Assembly (NCBI GenBank): GCA_903827975.1
Contig: CAIKKG010000024.1
Span: 64,523 to 107,690 of the forward strand
DNA length: 43,168 nucleotides
Direction: 5' to 3'
DNA from: an uncultured bacterium
GTDB taxonomy: Bacteria > Patescibacteriota > Minisyncoccia > UBA6257 > GWB1-50-10
Shown piece after piece: positions 24,047-34,143 of this stretch. The notes beneath the pieces were generated by a model. The model was not told the DNA's origin, ran no database searches, and saw only the letters and a list, made by a program, of their open reading frames with translations. Each line of letters starts with the position of its first letter. The stretch's first letter is position 1. A program made the translations under genes and the position numbers.

Positions 24047-24958
24047 GTGATAAGAATCGAACGGAATAAAAACATAAGTAGCCTCACCACCTTTGGAGTT
24101 GGTGGAGGCGTAGAGTATTTTTGTTTAGTAAAAAACTCAAAAGAATTTTACGAGGCAATTGCTTTGGCAGATAAAAAGTGTCTTAAATGGCGACTATTTT
24201 CTGGTGGTAGTAATCTGGTTCTACCTGATAAAAGAATATCTGGACTAGTTATTCGAATGTATGGTGGGCAAATTAAAAAAGATAAAACAAAACTTATTAT
24301 TGATGCTGGGGTACTACTCTCACGAGTTGTTGCTGCGGCAATAAAGGCTGGATTTCAGGGTATAGAGCAGCTGTCTGGAATTCCTGGGACGGTTGGTGGA
24401 GCGATCGTTGGGAATGCTGGGGCCTACGGGTGTTCAATCTCAGATCTCGTTTCGCGGGTGCTTGTGTGGGATGGGTGCGGTGAGCGATGGATTTCTGTCA
24501 AAGAATGCGGATTTAATTATCGTGAAAGCATATTTAAAAATAATGGGTGGATTGTTCTTCGTGTTGAATTAATTTTTGTAAGCGGTGATAAGAATAAAAT
24601 CAATGAACGTTCTAAGGAAATTATTGCGGAGCGGTTAAAGAAATATCCAAAAGGGCTTATGTGCCCAGGAAGTTATTTTAAAAATATTCTCGTCGCCGAA
24701 CTTTCCGGTGAGGCACTAAAAAAAATTGATAGAACAAAAATTATTGGTGGTAAGGTACCGGTCGGATATTTATTAGAGGTTGTTGGTGCAAGGGGCATGA
24801 GGCGGGGAGACGTGTGTGTGGCTACATATCACGGAAACCTAATTTTAAATAAAAATAATGGAACAACGCATGACGCAAAATCACTCGCGCGAGCGCTTAA
24901 GTCTAAGGTTTTTAAAAAATTTGGAATACTAATTGAAGAGGAGGTAAGATATTGGTAA
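24047..24958 (+). CDS. murB: UDP-N-acetylenolpyruvoylglucosamine reductase (GTG start)
   Basis: NISSLTTFGVGG, GGSNLVLPD, IPGTVGGAIVGNAGAYG, YRESIFK, CPGSYFKN. Confidence 0.95.
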   Translation: MIRIERNKNISSLTTFGVGGGVEYFCLVKNSKEFYEAIALADKKCLKWRLFSGGSNLVLPDKRISGLVIRMYGGQIKKDKTKLIIDAGVLLSRVVAAAIKAGFQGIEQLSGIPGTVGGAIVGNAGAYGCSISDLVSRVLVWDGCGERWISVKECGFNYRESIFKNNGWIVLRVELIFVSGDKNKINERSKEIIAERLKKYPKGLMCPGSYFKNILVAELSGEALKKIDRTKIIGGKVPVGYLLEVVGARGMRRGDVCVATYHGNLILNKNNGTTHDAKSLARALKSKVFKKFGILIEEEVRYW

Positions 24959-25524
24959 TGGATAAGTGTAAGGCATTAAAAAAACTCGAGGAAGAAATTG
25001 AGAATAATAAGGGTCTCCCGCTTTTGGAGGCTAATCTTGTTTTTGGCGAGGGTAATGCGGACTGCAAAATTCTTTTTATAGGTGAGGCACCAGGGAAAAA
25101 AGAGGACGAGTTGAGAAGACCATTTGTGGGGCGCTCTGGTAAGTTGCTCGAAAAAACACTCTGTGGAATCGGTATTAGTCGAGATGATGTGTATATTACA
25201 AACATTATTAAGAGGCGACCTCCGGAAAATAGAGATCCATCCAAGAGCGAGATAACGGCATATACCCCTTATTTAATTCGCCAGATAGATATTATAAAAC
25301 CAACCGTTATTGCAACACTTGGTAGATTTTCAATGAATTATTTTCTGCCAGATGCAACGATTTCTATAGATCAAGGGCACGTGTTTAAAGTGGGTGAGTA
25401 TTTTGTATATCCCATTTATCACCCAGCTGCTGCAATGCGTAATAAGAAAACGATGGCTGAGTTTAAGAATAGCTTTAAAAAACTACAACTAGCTATAAAA
25501 AAGTGCGAGGGTTTAAATAAGTAA
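24952..25524 (+). CDS. Uracil-DNA glycosylase, family 4-like
   Basis: FIGEAPGKKEDELRRPFVGRSGKLLEKTL, DVYITNIIKRRPPENRDP, YHPAAAMR. Confidence 0.9.
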   Translation: MVMDKCKALKKLEEEIENNKGLPLLEANLVFGEGNADCKILFIGEAPGKKEDELRRPFVGRSGKLLEKTLCGIGISRDDVYITNIIKRRPPENRDPSKSEITAYTPYLIRQIDIIKPTVIATLGRFSMNYFLPDATISIDQGHVFKVGEYFVYPIYHPAAAMRNKKTMAEFKNSFKKLQLAIKKCEGLNK

Positions 25525-25578: not shown

Positions 25579-25920
25579 ATGGATTTTGCGCTCACGTATG
25601 TGATTTGGCGCTTTTTCTACCGAATCGGCGATTTCTTGCGCCATTGGTATGTCAGAAGCCCACACATGTATATGGAATTTGTTATTGATATTTTGCGTCG
25701 CATGGACAACACGCTTGCTTGGCGCATAACACTGAAATACATATTTAAACCGTTATACGGAGATTATTCCCTAATCGGTCATATTTTGGGTTTTATATTC
25801 AGATTTAGCAGGTTGTTAATTGGTGGCGTAGTATATCTTTTTGTTTTTGCACTTGCTGCACTCGCATATTTGTTGTGGTTACTAATTCCACTATATATTC
25901 TTTACCTAATAATTTATTAA
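25579..25920 (+). CDS. Small hypothetical membrane protein preceding the Clp-like ATPase
   Basis: 113 aa, hydrophobic C-terminal half; TATAAT 8 nt before ATG. Confidence 0.7.
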   Translation: MDFALTYVIWRFFYRIGDFLRHWYVRSPHMYMEFVIDILRRMDNTLAWRITLKYIFKPLYGDYSLIGHILGFIFRFSRLLIGGVVYLFVFALAALAYLLWLLIPLYILYLIIY

Positions 25921-25929
25921 TAGAAAATA

Positions 25930-28440
25930 ATGTTATATTTTGATGAACAAAGATTAAGATTTACAGCTATAGGTGATTTTTTTGTTCGCTTAATCACATA
26001 CTCTGCTTATGCACTTTTATCAATTGGAGCATTTTTCTTTTTAGTTTCTACATCAACAAATATTAAAGCGCTTGGTGTCCTCTTCGCAATATTTCTTATT
26101 GATAGGGCATTACACGTTAAAGATGGTGAGAGATCAATTCCAGAACTTAAAGGTGAGAAGAGAAACGTGTCGCTTGCATTTACTCCGTCCGCACATAGAG
26201 TGCTTAGTCGCGCATTTAGGAAGTCGCGTGCCATAGGTAAGAATTTTTATCTTATTCTATTGCAGGAACTCATAGAACGCCACGATATAAAGGAGTCACT
26301 CACCAGACTATCAGTTAATATCCCTGAATTTGAGAAGAGGGTTAATAATGCAATAAGAGATTCAAAACAAGATTCACCAACAAAAGAAGAGTTGTTGAGT
26401 GTTGTTGAGTCATTATCTATCAGTGCCTATGGAGAGGCTGTTCAGATAGGAGAGGAGTATATCCATGGACGAAATTTATTCGTAGCGCTTTCCCTTGTAG
26501 GAGACCCGTCAATCGCGAGACTTTTTGAATTAGCAGAGCTTTCAACAGCAAATATAAAAGAAGCAATAATTTTTGGGAGATGGAGAAAGGCGTTTTTCGG
26601 TGGGATACCATCAGCATTAAGTGGGTTTGTTAATATACACAGAAGTCGTGGGACTCGTAAGGTTATGAATCGTGCGTGGACATCAAGGCCAACACCGCTA
26701 CTAGATAGGTTTAGTACCGACATTACTGATGTCGCGCGAGGTGGTGGGGCTGGTTTCTTAATAGGTCATGAGAAAGAGTATGACGCATTATTGCGAGTTG
26801 TTTCTCGCATAGGAAAGCCAAATGTATTGATAGTTGGTGAGCCAGGATCAGGAAAAACATCAATTATCGCACACCTAGCATATCGCATGTCTAAGGATGA
26901 TGTGCCGGCAGTTTTATTTGATAAACGATTAATCTCTATAGATATTGGAGCTCTTATTTCTGACACAAATACAGAAGCACTTGCAGGTAGGTTGAAGGGT
27001 ATCACAGACGAGATTCTCTCTGCTGGTAATGTGGTTCTTCATATTGCAAATATGCACGACCTTTTCCGCACTGGTCAGGCCAAGGCAATAAACGCAATTG
27101 ATATGTTGTTGCCAGTCATAATAAACGAGGGTATTCCTGTTATTGGTGAATCATTTCCACGAGAGTTCAAGCAGTTTATAGAACCAAGAACAGATTTTTT
27201 GGCGCAGTTTGATGTTGTAAATGTAGACGAGTTGTCTGAGGAGGATTCAGTTAGGTTCCTTATTTATAGCTCACTTATTCTAGAGAGGGAGTATGGTGTT
27301 TTTATAACATTCAGAGCGATTGAAAAAGCTGTTAATCTTGCGCATAGATATTTTCACGAAAGACTTTTGCCGGGAAGTGCTGAGGATCTTTTGAAGCAGG
27401 CATTATCAAATGCAAAAACAGAAAAGCTTAAAACACTAGACGCATCAGCAGTTATTGCTGTAGCAGAAAAACAAAGCAAGGTTCCAATTGAGCAAGCGAG
27501 TGAGTTGGAGGCGGAAAAACTTCTTAATCTTGAAAGCATAATCCATGAGAGATTTGTAAATCAGGATTCTGCTGTAAGCTCAGTCTCACGAGCACTTCGC
27601 GAATATAGGAGTGGACTTTCACGTAAAGGTGGTCCGATAGCAACGTTCCTTTTTGTTGGGCCAACCGGAGTTGGAAAAACTGAGTTAGCGAAAATTCTTG
27701 CGGGAATTCAATTTGGTTCTAAGGACTTAATGCAGAGATTTGATATGTCAGAGTATCAGGACAAGCAAAGTATTTTTCAATTAACTGGAACGCCAAACGG
27801 AGATAGGGGTGGAGCGCTTACAGACGCCGTGTTAAAAAATCCATATTGCCTAGTTTTGTTAGATGAATTTGAAAAAGCACACCCTGATATTTTGAATTTA
27901 TTCTTGCAGGTTTTTGATGATGGACGACTTACAGATAGCTCGGGGCGAACCGTTGATTTTCAAAACACAATTATAATTGCTACATCTAATGCAAACTCAA
28001 AATATATTAAAGATGAGATAGAAAAGGGAACTAAAATTGAAGATATCGCTGTTGAAATAAAGAAGAAGCTGACCGACTATTTTAAACCAGAACTTGTTAA
28101 TCGTTTTTCTGATATTATCGTTTTTCGTGATTTGAAGCCCGAGGAGATATATGTTGTTGCTAAATTCCTTATTAAGGACGTTGTTGGAACACTAAGAACA
28201 GCACAGGGTGTGGACCTTCGTGTAGATGATTCAGCTCTCCTTAAAATATCTGAGTTAGGATTTAGTCCAGTTTTTGGAGCCAGACCACTTAGACAGGTTG
28301 TTTCTGAAAAGGTAAGAAGCACGCTTGCGGAAAAGATATTAAGGCGCGAGATTGTGCGCGGCTCAGTTCTTTTGCTTAAGTATGAAAATGAAAAGTTTGT
28401 TTGGGAAAATGTCGATGACGGCGTAAATAAGGTACAATAG
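25930..28440 (+). CDS. Membrane-anchored Clp/HSP100-like double AAA+ ATPase
   Basis: N-terminal TM helices; D1 Walker A VGEPGSGKTS; D2 VGPTGVGKTELAK, LLDEFEKAHPD, PELVNRF, GARPLRQ. Confidence 0.92.
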   Translation: MLYFDEQRLRFTAIGDFFVRLITYSAYALLSIGAFFFLVSTSTNIKALGVLFAIFLIDRALHVKDGERSIPELKGEKRNVSLAFTPSAHRVLSRAFRKSRAIGKNFYLILLQELIERHDIKESLTRLSVNIPEFEKRVNNAIRDSKQDSPTKEELLSVVESLSISAYGEAVQIGEEYIHGRNLFVALSLVGDPSIARLFELAELSTANIKEAIIFGRWRKAFFGGIPSALSGFVNIHRSRGTRKVMNRAWTSRPTPLLDRFSTDITDVARGGGAGFLIGHEKEYDALLRVVSRIGKPNVLIVGEPGSGKTSIIAHLAYRMSKDDVPAVLFDKRLISIDIGALISDTNTEALAGRLKGITDEILSAGNVVLHIANMHDLFRTGQAKAINAIDMLLPVIINEGIPVIGESFPREFKQFIEPRTDFLAQFDVVNVDELSEEDSVRFLIYSSLILEREYGVFITFRAIEKAVNLAHRYFHERLLPGSAEDLLKQALSNAKTEKLKTLDASAVIAVAEKQSKVPIEQASELEAEKLLNLESIIHERFVNQDSAVSSVSRALREYRSGLSRKGGPIATFLFVGPTGVGKTELAKILAGIQFGSKDLMQRFDMSEYQDKQSIFQLTGTPNGDRGGALTDAVLKNPYCLVLLDEFEKAHPDILNLFLQVFDDGRLTDSSGRTVDFQNTIIIATSNANSKYIKDEIEKGTKIEDIAVEIKKKLTDYFKPELVNRFSDIIVFRDLKPEEIYVVAKFLIKDVVGTLRTAQGVDLRVDDSALLKISELGFSPVFGARPLRQVVSEKVRSTLAEKILRREIVRGSVLLLKYENEKFVWENVDDGVNKVQ

Positions 28441-30761: not shown

Positions 30762-32219
30762 TTATGGATATGGTATGAGCGAGCCCCCTTGTGGCGTGAT
30801 GTTTGGAATATTTTTATTTACTTCACGTGCTTTTCTCATGTCCGCCCTAAATCCGAATAGTGTGGATTGTAGTTCGCTCTCTATCGAAAGACCAGTCCCA
30901 ATCAAATTATTTTGTTCATTTGGATCATTTGTGAGATCATATAACTCATCTTTTGTGTTTATTGGCTCGTGCGTTATTAGTCTTTTCATCCAATAGTCAT
31001 ATGTGTTGAGTCCATCCTTTATTGCTGGGTTTCTCATAATGTATTTCCAATTGCCACGACGAACAGCGTATTCATCAAAGGGTGGTCGTTCTGTAAAAAT
31101 ATCATGTGATAAAACCTCACCATTTATGAGTGGAATGATGTTTGTTCCACTTGTGTGTTCTGGCGGTACACCCTGCGCTATAGCAACGAGTGTGGGCATA
31201 AGATCCATCGTATTTACAGGCGTCGCAATGCGCATCGGTTTAATATATGGGGGATAGATGATAGCAAGTGGAACGTGTGTGTTTACCTCGTAAAGATCAC
31301 GATGGAAGAAGTATCCGTGCTCTCCAAGATCATCACCATGCTCACTGCTTATAATAAACATTGTGTCTTTATACCAAGGTTCATTTTTAATACTTTCAAA
31401 GAATGTTCGGAGTTCCTCATCTACGTACTGAACACCTCTGTCATATGCCTCATTTAGGTATTTCTTATCATCATCTGTAAATTGGTGGAGGGTTGTTGCA
31501 TCTCTTTTTTCGGATGTATACATCGGGATAGACGAGGTACTCTGTGCTTCCCAAATAAACGAATGTTCCATTTTTGAATCATCAAAGACACTATTGTAAG
31601 AGCTCGACGCGCTCATATATGGAGAATGAGCGTCATAGATGTGCCAAAATATAAATGTAGAATTTCCCTTTTTTAAATATTCAGAAACATCCGTTTTTGA
31701 AAACGCAACATTCTTTGTGTTTTCGCTCATTTTGTAATACTGGAAGCTAGTACTCCACCCAAAGCGCGGCCATAGGCTTGGTGAAACAAATCCTGCTGTG
31801 TTGTATCCATAGTTTGTAAGTATGGAGGGGAGTAAAGGAAGAGATTTATTTATTGGGGTAGTCCACTGAATAACATTATTTTCCGAAGGATAGAGGCCGG
31901 AAAATAGCGCTGCATCACTTTGGAATGTTAGATATGCTGGAGTTTCAGCATTCTCAAAAATTGCACCCTTTTTCATAAGTGAATCAAGAAACGGTGTTGT
32001 GTCTTTTGAGTATCCATAGATGCCCATGCGGTCAGCACGCAACGAGTCTATATTTATAACTACAATGTTTTTAGGTTTTGGTATTTCTAGCGGATGAATA
32101 GATTCACTTTTTTGTATTTTTAAAACAATAATAACCGCGGTTATTATTGTCGCGGTTATTGTAAGCACTAACGCTTTATATATTATTTTTTTCCTGTTGG
32201 TTTTGTAATCGGTAGACAT
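30762..32219 (-). CDS. Membrane-anchored sulfatase/alkaline-phosphatase-superfamily protein (paralogue 1)
   Basis: TM helix then NIVVINIDSLRADRMGIYGYSKDTTPFLD, FSGLYPSENNV, SEHGDDLGEHG; start MSTDYK at 32219. Confidence 0.85.
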   Translation of the reverse strand: MSTDYKTNRKKIIYKALVLTITATIITAVIIVLKIQKSESIHPLEIPKPKNIVVINIDSLRADRMGIYGYSKDTTPFLDSLMKKGAIFENAETPAYLTFQSDAALFSGLYPSENNVIQWTTPINKSLPLLPSILTNYGYNTAGFVSPSLWPRFGWSTSFQYYKMSENTKNVAFSKTDVSEYLKKGNSTFIFWHIYDAHSPYMSASSSYNSVFDDSKMEHSFIWEAQSTSSIPMYTSEKRDATTLHQFTDDDKKYLNEAYDRGVQYVDEELRTFFESIKNEPWYKDTMFIISSEHGDDLGEHGYFFHRDLYEVNTHVPLAIIYPPYIKPMRIATPVNTMDLMPTLVAIAQGVPPEHTSGTNIIPLINGEVLSHDIFTERPPFDEYAVRRGNWKYIMRNPAIKDGLNTYDYWMKRLITHEPINTKDELYDLTNDPNEQNNLIGTGLSIESELQSTLFGFRADMRKAREVNKNIPNITPQGGSLIPYP

Positions 32220-33583
32220 TGATCTGCATATACTGGTGAGCAACCTAGTATCCATGGCCCCTTATCCGCATTCATTGCCTTAAGGTGTGCGAATAGTTTT
32301 TGTTCTAGTTCGTATGCTATTTTACCCTCTTTTACAGAAAGGTTTGTCTGTTCGTTTGGATCAGTATTCAAATTATACAACTCCTTTTTCCCGGTCTCCA
32401 TTGTTTCAATAAATTTCCACCCATCAACCGTTGTTATGCTGCGCTTATGTGTGTAGAGCCTGTAATCCGTTTCTGAATATACGTCATGCGCCACAGGTGT
32501 TCCTGAAAAGGATGGTGAGATATCAACTCCTTTCATAGCTTCTACAGGAGCAATTTTGAGCATTGAGAGTACTGTTGGCGCAAGATCAAGCGTACTCACA
32601 AGATCTGTGATTGTTTTTGGTTGTGTCTGTCCAGGTGCGTGAATTGCAAAAAGCGTATTAAGTAGCTCACCATAGAGTGTGTGCCCATGATCAATGCCAT
32701 TGTGCTCAAAGAACTCGGTTCCATGATCACTTATAACGGCAATAATTGTGTTATCCGATATACCTAATGAATCTACATATTTCATAAAGTCACCGAACTC
32801 AGCATCTGCTCTTGAAATCTTCTCATCGTAGATTGCTCTCCAGAAGGCTTTATCTTCTGCGGAAAGCGAGAGGCCATGATTTGCAAGACTCTGTTCGCGA
32901 AGTATTCCTTGTTCCTTTGTACTACCAGTATATATTCCATTATATGGTTTCTGTACGTAACGGTAGTCATACTCCTTTGGTGCATACTGACCATGAACGT
33001 CATAACCATGTACGAATAGGAAGAATTTATTATCCTTATTTTTTGAGAGCCAGTCCTTAGCCATCGGCACGCTTGTATCTAACCCACCAAATGTTGTCTT
33101 GTCGTAATACGTATCAAATCCTTGCGCGTGGCCAAATGCAGCACTGATGCCAGCATCGCCGGTGAATCCTGCGGTTGCATATCCATTTTGTTTTAAGATT
33201 TGCGCAAGTGTTACTGCGTTAGGACTTAGGTTTTTTAAATTAGCTTTTACTAGCGATGTTGTTGCTCCAGTAACATCTTCAACCATCTTGTTTACAACCT
33301 TGTGTTCGCTGGGGTATAGGCTTGTGAATATAGACATAAAAGATGGAACGGTCCACGAGGCTGGGCTAACCGTGTTTCTGTAGAGGTATGAGTCTCCGAG
33401 AAACTTATCAAGATTTGGGGTTATATCTTTATCATATCCATATGCTGGTAGATGTTTTGCTTGGAGCCCATCAAACGCAAATACAATTAGGTTGCGCTGT
33501 TGTTTTGGTTTTATTGCAACAAAATAGATTGCGGAAATGATTGCAATACCAACAAGAAGTGTGGTGATGAGTTTCGGTTTCAT
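32183..33583 (-). CDS. Membrane-anchored sulfatase/alkaline-phosphatase-superfamily protein (paralogue 2)
   Basis: MKPKLITTLLVGIAIISAIYF TM; NLIVFAFDGLQAKHLPAYGYDKDITPNLD; ISDHGTEFFEHNGIDHGHTLY; start 33583, upstream track N-terminus spans tmRNA-derived repeat and judged spurious. Confidence 0.85.
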   Translation of the reverse strand: MKPKLITTLLVGIAIISAIYFVAIKPKQQRNLIVFAFDGLQAKHLPAYGYDKDITPNLDKFLGDSYLYRNTVSPASWTVPSFMSIFTSLYPSEHKVVNKMVEDVTGATTSLVKANLKNLSPNAVTLAQILKQNGYATAGFTGDAGISAAFGHAQGFDTYYDKTTFGGLDTSVPMAKDWLSKNKDNKFFLFVHGYDVHGQYAPKEYDYRYVQKPYNGIYTGSTKEQGILREQSLANHGLSLSAEDKAFWRAIYDEKISRADAEFGDFMKYVDSLGISDNTIIAVISDHGTEFFEHNGIDHGHTLYGELLNTLFAIHAPGQTQPKTITDLVSTLDLAPTVLSMLKIAPVEAMKGVDISPSFSGTPVAHDVYSETDYRLYTHKRSITTVDGWKFIETMETGKKELYNLNTDPNEQTNLSVKEGKIAYELEQKLFAHLKAMNADKGPWILGCSPVYADQCLPITKPTGKK

Positions 33584-33600
33584 ATATTCCATTGTAACAA

Positions 33601-33648
33601 AAAAACACCCGAATGGGTGTTTTCTCTTTTGTGGAGATGACCGGAGTT
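33601..33648. repeat. Duplicate copy of tmRNA 3' end plus downstream terminator (copy A)
   Basis: 48 nt matching 33774-33821 with 2 mismatches, both in the hairpin loop. Confidence 0.9.
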
Positions 33649-33773
33649 TCACTGCTCGACCATTCAGAATGTTCTCCACTCTAAAACCCTGCGGTTTTAG
33701 TATTTCCGCCACGGGGAAACAAGTTTCCCCGACCCCCTTTTTCGGTTCAACTCCTCTGGTTATGTTAAAAAAT

Positions 33774-33821
33774 AAAAACACCCGTTTGGGTGTTTTCTCT
33801 TTTGTGGAGATGACCGGAGTT
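33774..33821. repeat. tmRNA 3' end plus terminator (copy B, the functional one)
   Basis: aaaaacacccgtttgggtgttttctcttttgtggagatgaccggagtt. Confidence 0.9.
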
Positions 33822-34143
33822 GAACCGGTGTCCAAAATACTTCTCACAAACCGTCTACAAGCTTAGTTCGATTTAACTCGGAACAAATGATTCTAATTTT
33901 AACAACGGTTTACGAATCATTACGCCGTTGCGATTTTCAAATATAACACCGGCACTCCTCTATGAAACCTCGAGGACCGATGCCACTGCTATAAAAGCGG
34001 TGGAACACATTCATTACGCAAAAGCGAATGAAGGTGCTGCAACACGAGTGTTGTCAGTTAATGTTTTTTGAATGGTTTATACGAGGCACTCAGCTCGGCC
34101 TGCAAATTTATGAGTGGGTATTCTGTCAAAGCCCAACATCCCC
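33805..34143 (-). ncRNA. ssrA: Transfer-messenger RNA
   Basis: Minus strand 5' GGGGATG...TTTGACAGAATACCC; 3' ACACCGGTTCAACTCCGGTCATCTCCA; acceptor GGGGATG/CATCTCC; tag reading frame ...DNTRVAAPSFAFA TAA TGA; adjacent to smpB; CCA not fully encoded. Confidence 0.93.

Follow-up and report, generated by a model that had tools for sequence, protein, structure and literature searches.

A membrane-anchored Clp-like ATPase without threading loops and its small membrane partner in Patescibacteria: a candidate two-subunit complex with a possible role in cell division or wall synthesis

What can a Clp-like ATPase do at the membrane when its first AAA+ module has lost catalytic residues, and does the small membrane protein encoded directly in front of it belong to the same machine? 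These questions are raised by a gene pair in the 43,168-nucleotide stretch of DNA analysed here (hereafter the window), which comes from an uncultured member of the Patescibacteriota (GenBank assembly GCA_903827975.1, contig CAIKKG010000024.1). As a preliminary description of this sequence had indicated, a 113-aa membrane ORF (P0002, here called p113) lies upstream of an 836-aa Clp-like ORF (P0001). The spacing between them is 9 nt. The features of the pair are as follows.

25579..25920, + strand: p113 (P0002), a 113-aa membrane protein of a new family, in which two long predicted helices flank the conserved loop F-x-P-L-Y-x-D-Y-S (residues 56-63)
25930..28440, + strand: membrane-anchored Clp/Hsp100-like ATPase P0001, 836 aa
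25930..26118, + strand: P0001 N-terminal membrane anchor, two helices, about residues 2-63 (hydropathy and AF2, with low confidence there)
26167..26601, + strand: P0001 helical region, about residues 80-224, that looks like a degenerate Clp N-domain (ClpA model match, AF2 overlay on ClpC)
26671..27495, + strand: P0001 D1 AAA+ module, about residues 248-522 (alignment, residue tallies)
27496..28401, + strand: P0001 D2 AAA+ module, about residues 523-824, with the GYVG pore loop deleted and no IGF (alignment, residue tallies)
27793..27816, + strand: P0001 D2 pore-loop segment TPNGDRGG, residues 622-629 (alignment)

P0001 matched ClpC, ClpB and ClpA across the D1-D2 core, and two tandem Clp-type AAA+ modules, a trait of class 1 Hsp100/Clp proteins, are present. 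Its NCBIfam bit scores are far under the equivalog cut-offs (468 vs 1232 for ClpB, 414 vs 993 for ClpA), thus P0001, judged by these scores, is a Clp relative rather than a recognised Clp. The top fold matches of the AF2 model (mean pLDDT 84.6, 39-sequence alignment) were ClpC chains. The N-terminal transmembrane (TM) helices proposed earlier were backed by hydropathy peaks starting at residues 21 and 45 and by AF2 helices at residues 2-39 and 43-63, where the confidence of the model is low. Residues 80-224 are all-helical in the AF2 model (pLDDT about 90) and were overlaid on ClpC, and the match to TIGR02639 (ClpA) starts at residue 88; Clp_N was neither among the 25 of 57 Pfam families listed for P0001 nor in the member tally. 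No residues of P0001 stand opposite the ClpB M-domain in the alignment, indicating that the coiled-coil M-domain is missing. When a viral or defence origin was considered, the PHROG and PADLOC matches of P0001 proved to be generic AAA+/Clp families, and a scan of viral contigs returned Clp relatives.

Motifs were placed by aligning P0001 to ClpC/ClpB and to the ordinary Clp of its own genome, and residues were tallied in three sets, namely 69 order-level orthologues, 52 family members found elsewhere in the phylum, and a control set of 76 ordinary Clps that the same search had, with few exceptions, returned from other bacteria. The D1 motifs fell where the preliminary description had put them. 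Walker A (GEPGSGKT) is retained, and Walker B reads VVLHIANMHDL against the aligned VILFIDELHTL (IANMH for IDEIH), the arginine-finger region TDFLAQF against ALERRF (FLAQF for LERRF), sensor 1 IGES against IGAT, and the pore segment DTNT-EALA for GTKFRGEFE. These losses are conserved. The Walker B D-E pair was found in 0/69 order orthologues and 11/52 phylum members vs 75/76 ordinary Clps, the paired arginines in 0/69 and 0/52 vs 76/76, and the pore aromatic in 0/69 and 0/52 vs 68/76, while the P-loop persists in its strict form in 60/69 and 38/52. Within the order, no Walker B or fingers were located elsewhere in D1 and no orthologue kept them together with an IGF loop; the 11 phylum members that keep the D-E pair have neither paired arginines nor IGF. 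Misalignment of the D1 motifs was ruled out by several alignments and the AF2 model, and an assembly or frameshift error by the occurrence of identical changes in more than 100 genomes.

The D2 module of P0001 carries Walker A GPTGVGKT, Walker B LLDEFEK, sensor 1 TSNA, finger LVNRF and sensor 2 FGARPL. Walker A, Walker B and the NR finger are kept in 69/69 order orthologues and 52/52 phylum members and are complete in ordinary Clps too; sensor 1 is kept in 69/69 order orthologues, and the GAR of sensor 2 in 69/69, 47/52 and 76/76 of the order, phylum and ordinary sets. Taken together, these tallies suggest that D1 probably serves as a scaffold that binds ATP, and that D2 is probably an active motor. 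D2 had been called intact, which holds for its catalytic residues and fails for its substrate-gripping loop GYVG. The G-aromatic of this loop occurs in 0/69 order orthologues and 3/52 phylum members (as G-Y or G-F), compared with 76/76 ordinary Clps. The P0001 segment TPNGDRGG has no aromatic and is four residues shorter than that of the control, SPPGYVGHDEGG, and within the order the loop is uniformly shortened rather than substituted. The pore could be lined by other residues. A ClpP-docking tripeptide after D2 sensor 1, already noted as absent in the first inspection, is indeed lacking throughout the family (IGF/LGF in 0/69 and 0/52 vs 70/76 ordinary Clps).

The small protein encoded upstream gave no family match in Pfam, NCBIfam, PHROG or PADLOC, and a Foldseek search with its model returned no match; p113 represents a new protein family. 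Its AF2 model, built on an alignment of only 4 sequences (pLDDT 72, pTM 0.39), places helices at residues 3-55 and 64-112. At the phylum level, p113 is encoded immediately 5' of the Clp gene in 61/71 loci, and in another 8/71 the two are joined in one protein with p113 at the N-terminus (e.g. L240, whose protein starts WWWYVRN...FRPYRRDYTWVGYLIG). That such fusions occur in some lineages argues strongly for joint action of the separate proteins. In an order-wide search, a P0001 orthologue (a match scoring well above the level of ordinary Clps) was detected in 123/150 genomes and P0002 in 121/150, with concordance in 148/150; G049, one of the two discordant genomes, has a divergent p113 just upstream. 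The pair was concordant in 42/42 genomes of the window's family (38 with both, 4 with neither). The proposal that p113 is a dedicated partner is thereby well supported, and linkage, fusion and conservation exclude that it is a chance ORF.

Members with a name include Ca. Magasanikbacteria (L082), a Parcubacteria MAG (L132) and a Saccharibacteria MAG (L153), all of Patescibacteria/CPR, and the full set of changes was shared by none of the matches from other bacteria. In the core tree, the alignment of which took in the D1 Walker B and D1 pore motif columns, 27 members stand on one side of a 100/100 branch and 18 ordinary Clps on the other, same-phylum Clps included; a D2-only tree gave the same split (SH-aLRT 94). 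Since the root of the tree is not fixed, these trees are compatible with a single origin of the loop-less family and do not prove it. The deep family is not uniform, given the 3 phylum members with G-Y/G-F in D2 and the 11/52 with the D1 D-E pair. No earlier description of the loop-less Clp/p113 pair was found in the open literature searched. According to a CPR-wide family survey, annotation is poor for most of the families enriched in CPR and many of them have TM helices, and Clp is not mentioned in its main text (PMC6744442); the main text of a Saccharibacteria study mentions neither Clp nor AAA (PMC10633639).

Two further sequence peculiarities were seen among the members. In many phylum members (L082, L225, L226, L171, L186 and others), the TM helices are preceded by a zinc-ribbon-like segment, CxxC...CxxCxG, at the N-terminus. 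In family f26 of the window's order (L387-L390, from G085, G101, G066 and G115), in-frame TGA occurs at conserved Trp positions of p113 (RHWYV -> KH-TGA-YV), of the Clp-like protein and of an ordinary Clp, and TGA is likely read as Trp in this family.

Outside the window's order, the arrangement mraZ-rsmH-ftsL-[p113-Clp]-GT4 occurs in 6-8 loci (L082, L225, L226, L229, L231 and similar), where GT4 is an MraY/WecA-family transferase and the label ftsL rests on size, position and look, with no Pfam match. Also outside the order are [p113-Clp]-mraZ-rsmH in 4 loci (L132, L241, L244, L251), ftsI-murE-[p113-Clp] in L245, and a fused Clp-prfB-x-ftsE-ftsX-M23 peptidase arrangement in 3 loci (L249, L256, L260). 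Within the order, [p113-Clp]-LCP-Mur ligase was found in 5 loci (L065-L067, L069, L070), and murB sits two genes upstream of the pair in the window; ribosomal or DNA-repair genes, rather than dcw genes, predominate around the pair in this order. An envelope or division neighbour within 1.5 kb was present at 18/52 member loci vs 0/28 ordinary Patescibacteria Clp loci (p = 1.5e-4, a value that overstates the case because the gene list was drawn up after the neighbourhoods had been viewed and the loci are related). The pair is missing from about 27/150 genomes of the order, some of them 100% complete; a role in division, if there is one, would therefore not be universal.

Other features of these surroundings are recorded here. 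In most loci of the order (L062-L067, L069-L074, L076, L080), the position immediately before p113 is taken by a TIGR00375 PHP-type protein, which we take to be EndoQ-like; in the window (24952-25524), L075 and L079 it is occupied by a type-4 uracil-DNA glycosylase. Possibly two unrelated families for the repair of deaminated bases swap in this position. At 30762-33847 (- strand), the window encodes two adjacent related membrane-anchored sulfatase/phosphatase-like proteins (497 and 554 aa) that fell into one cluster and seem to have arisen by tandem duplication.

By its sequence, the pair combines a membrane anchor and a constant small partner with a single AAA+ module that is catalytically complete, and it lacks both threading loops and ClpP docking. 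We propose with moderate confidence that P0001 and P0002 form a two-subunit, membrane-anchored, non-threading AAA+ (Hsp100) complex specific to Patescibacteria, with gene order pointing to the cell-division or peptidoglycan machinery as its target; a role in cell division or wall synthesis is the most likely one on that evidence. P0001 would form a ring on the cytoplasmic face of the membrane, with D1 as a nucleotide-binding platform and D2 as the sole motor. The ATP cycle of D2, acting by way of p113 and the anchor and without threading a chain, would then alter the conformation of membrane partners or their assembly, and the complex may serve these partners as a switch or assembly factor, its client being division or peptidoglycan machinery if gene order is a guide.

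A bolder form of this proposal is offered tentatively: an ancient, distinct Hsp100 class of Patescibacteria might have abandoned threading to become a membrane-embedded, ATP-driven switch for division or wall assembly, with p113 as an obligate subunit and the whole as a bacterial counterpart of Torsins.

The strongest competitor, which we still regard as somewhat unlikely, is that the pair serves the quality control or the insertion of membrane proteins, independently of division, and that its dcw location is incidental. The wide variation in gene order fits this, and so do the genes found beside the pair in the window's order (EndoQ-like, udg, nudix or rplT-infC), but several different arrangements independently adjoin division or wall genes and the control Clps never do (0/28).

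Pore loops of the kind lost here grip the substrate in ClpB (PMC6546751, PMC6593972), and the absence of both gripping loops from P0001 disfavours the unfoldase or disaggregase first suggested for it. Such an enzyme, bound to the membrane and working without ClpP, would have to thread or extract membrane or nascent proteins by non-canonical pore residues. We consider this rather improbable, since the aromatic loops are gone from the family (present in D1 of 0/121 and D2 of 3/121 members) and the D2 loop of the order shows a uniform shortening and not a substitution of residues, even though D2 is a complete Clp-type motor with a conserved DGRLTD segment, the modelled overall fold is ClpC-like, and three deep members do have an aromatic in the D2 loop.

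The same genome also encodes an ordinary Clp (L001) and a D2-only Clp (L003), both with IGF, and ClpP is present (L035), which rules out that ClpP is missing from this genome. L003 (G000:C24:530-1453) is a Clp of 365 aa whose only AAA+ module is of the D2 type; it has GYVG and an IGF motif and is a possible partner of ClpP. In L235, L258, L259 and L263, an ordinary Clp with intact motifs lies a few genes from the loop-less Clp, in the same 14-18 kb locus. That P0001 is a regulatory pseudo-subunit mixing with L001 or L003 and tethering their ring to the membrane finds some encouragement in these genes, but it is quite improbable, as the D2 active site is fully conserved in all members, unlike in a pseudoenzyme, ordinary Clp genes are seldom closely linked to the gene for P0001 or its relatives, and the constant partner is p113.

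Compared with known systems, the putative non-threading complex is closest to ClpC/ClpA in the tandem order of D1 and D2, the lids and the best sequence or fold matches (6em8, 9a66, 9rai), and it shares with ClpA the lack of a long M-domain. It differs from both in its two N-terminal TM helices and dedicated membrane partner, and in having lost the D1 catalytic set, both aromatic pore loops and the IGF loop. ClpB/Hsp104 resembles P0001 in the D2 catalytic motifs and the absence of ClpP docking, whereas P0001 has no M-domain or pore loops, a D1 that appears inactive, and a membrane anchor. FtsH is a membrane-anchored AAA+ ATPase with two N-terminal TM helices, as P0001 is predicted to be, but FtsH is not of the Clp type and carries an M41 peptidase domain, and no M41 was among the Pfam matches listed for P0001. 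Torsins are Clp/Hsp100 relatives on the membrane that lack aromatic pore loops and work with a membrane-protein partner (LAP1/LULL1) (PMC5425593), three traits that P0001 shares. However, Torsins are single-ring, ER-luminal proteins that have no arginine finger of their own and borrow one, whereas the modelled p113 has no AAA+ fold and the finger is not supplied by the partner, the D2 NR finger being present in all members. Torsins are a precedent for Clp relatives that have lost these loops and work with such a partner, and P0001, with two AAA+ modules and its own D2 finger, is not itself a Torsin. ClpI of Actinomycetota is also restricted to one lineage, as a third class of double-ring Clp that in part lacks LGF; its ATPase modules and translocation motifs are intact, and the abstract on it describes no membrane anchor (PMC10149685).

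The p113-Clp pair is a widespread unnamed pair in Patescibacteria, the division and envelope biology of which is little known, and the class is spread over one of the largest bacterial groups, mostly uncultured and tiny. Genetic tools exist for Saccharibacteria (PMC10633639), and a Saccharibacteria MAG carries the pair, so its role is directly testable. Hsp100 machines are defined by the threading of a polypeptide through their ring; the loop-less class would keep the motor and drop the gripping loops, two parts that nature has thus separated.
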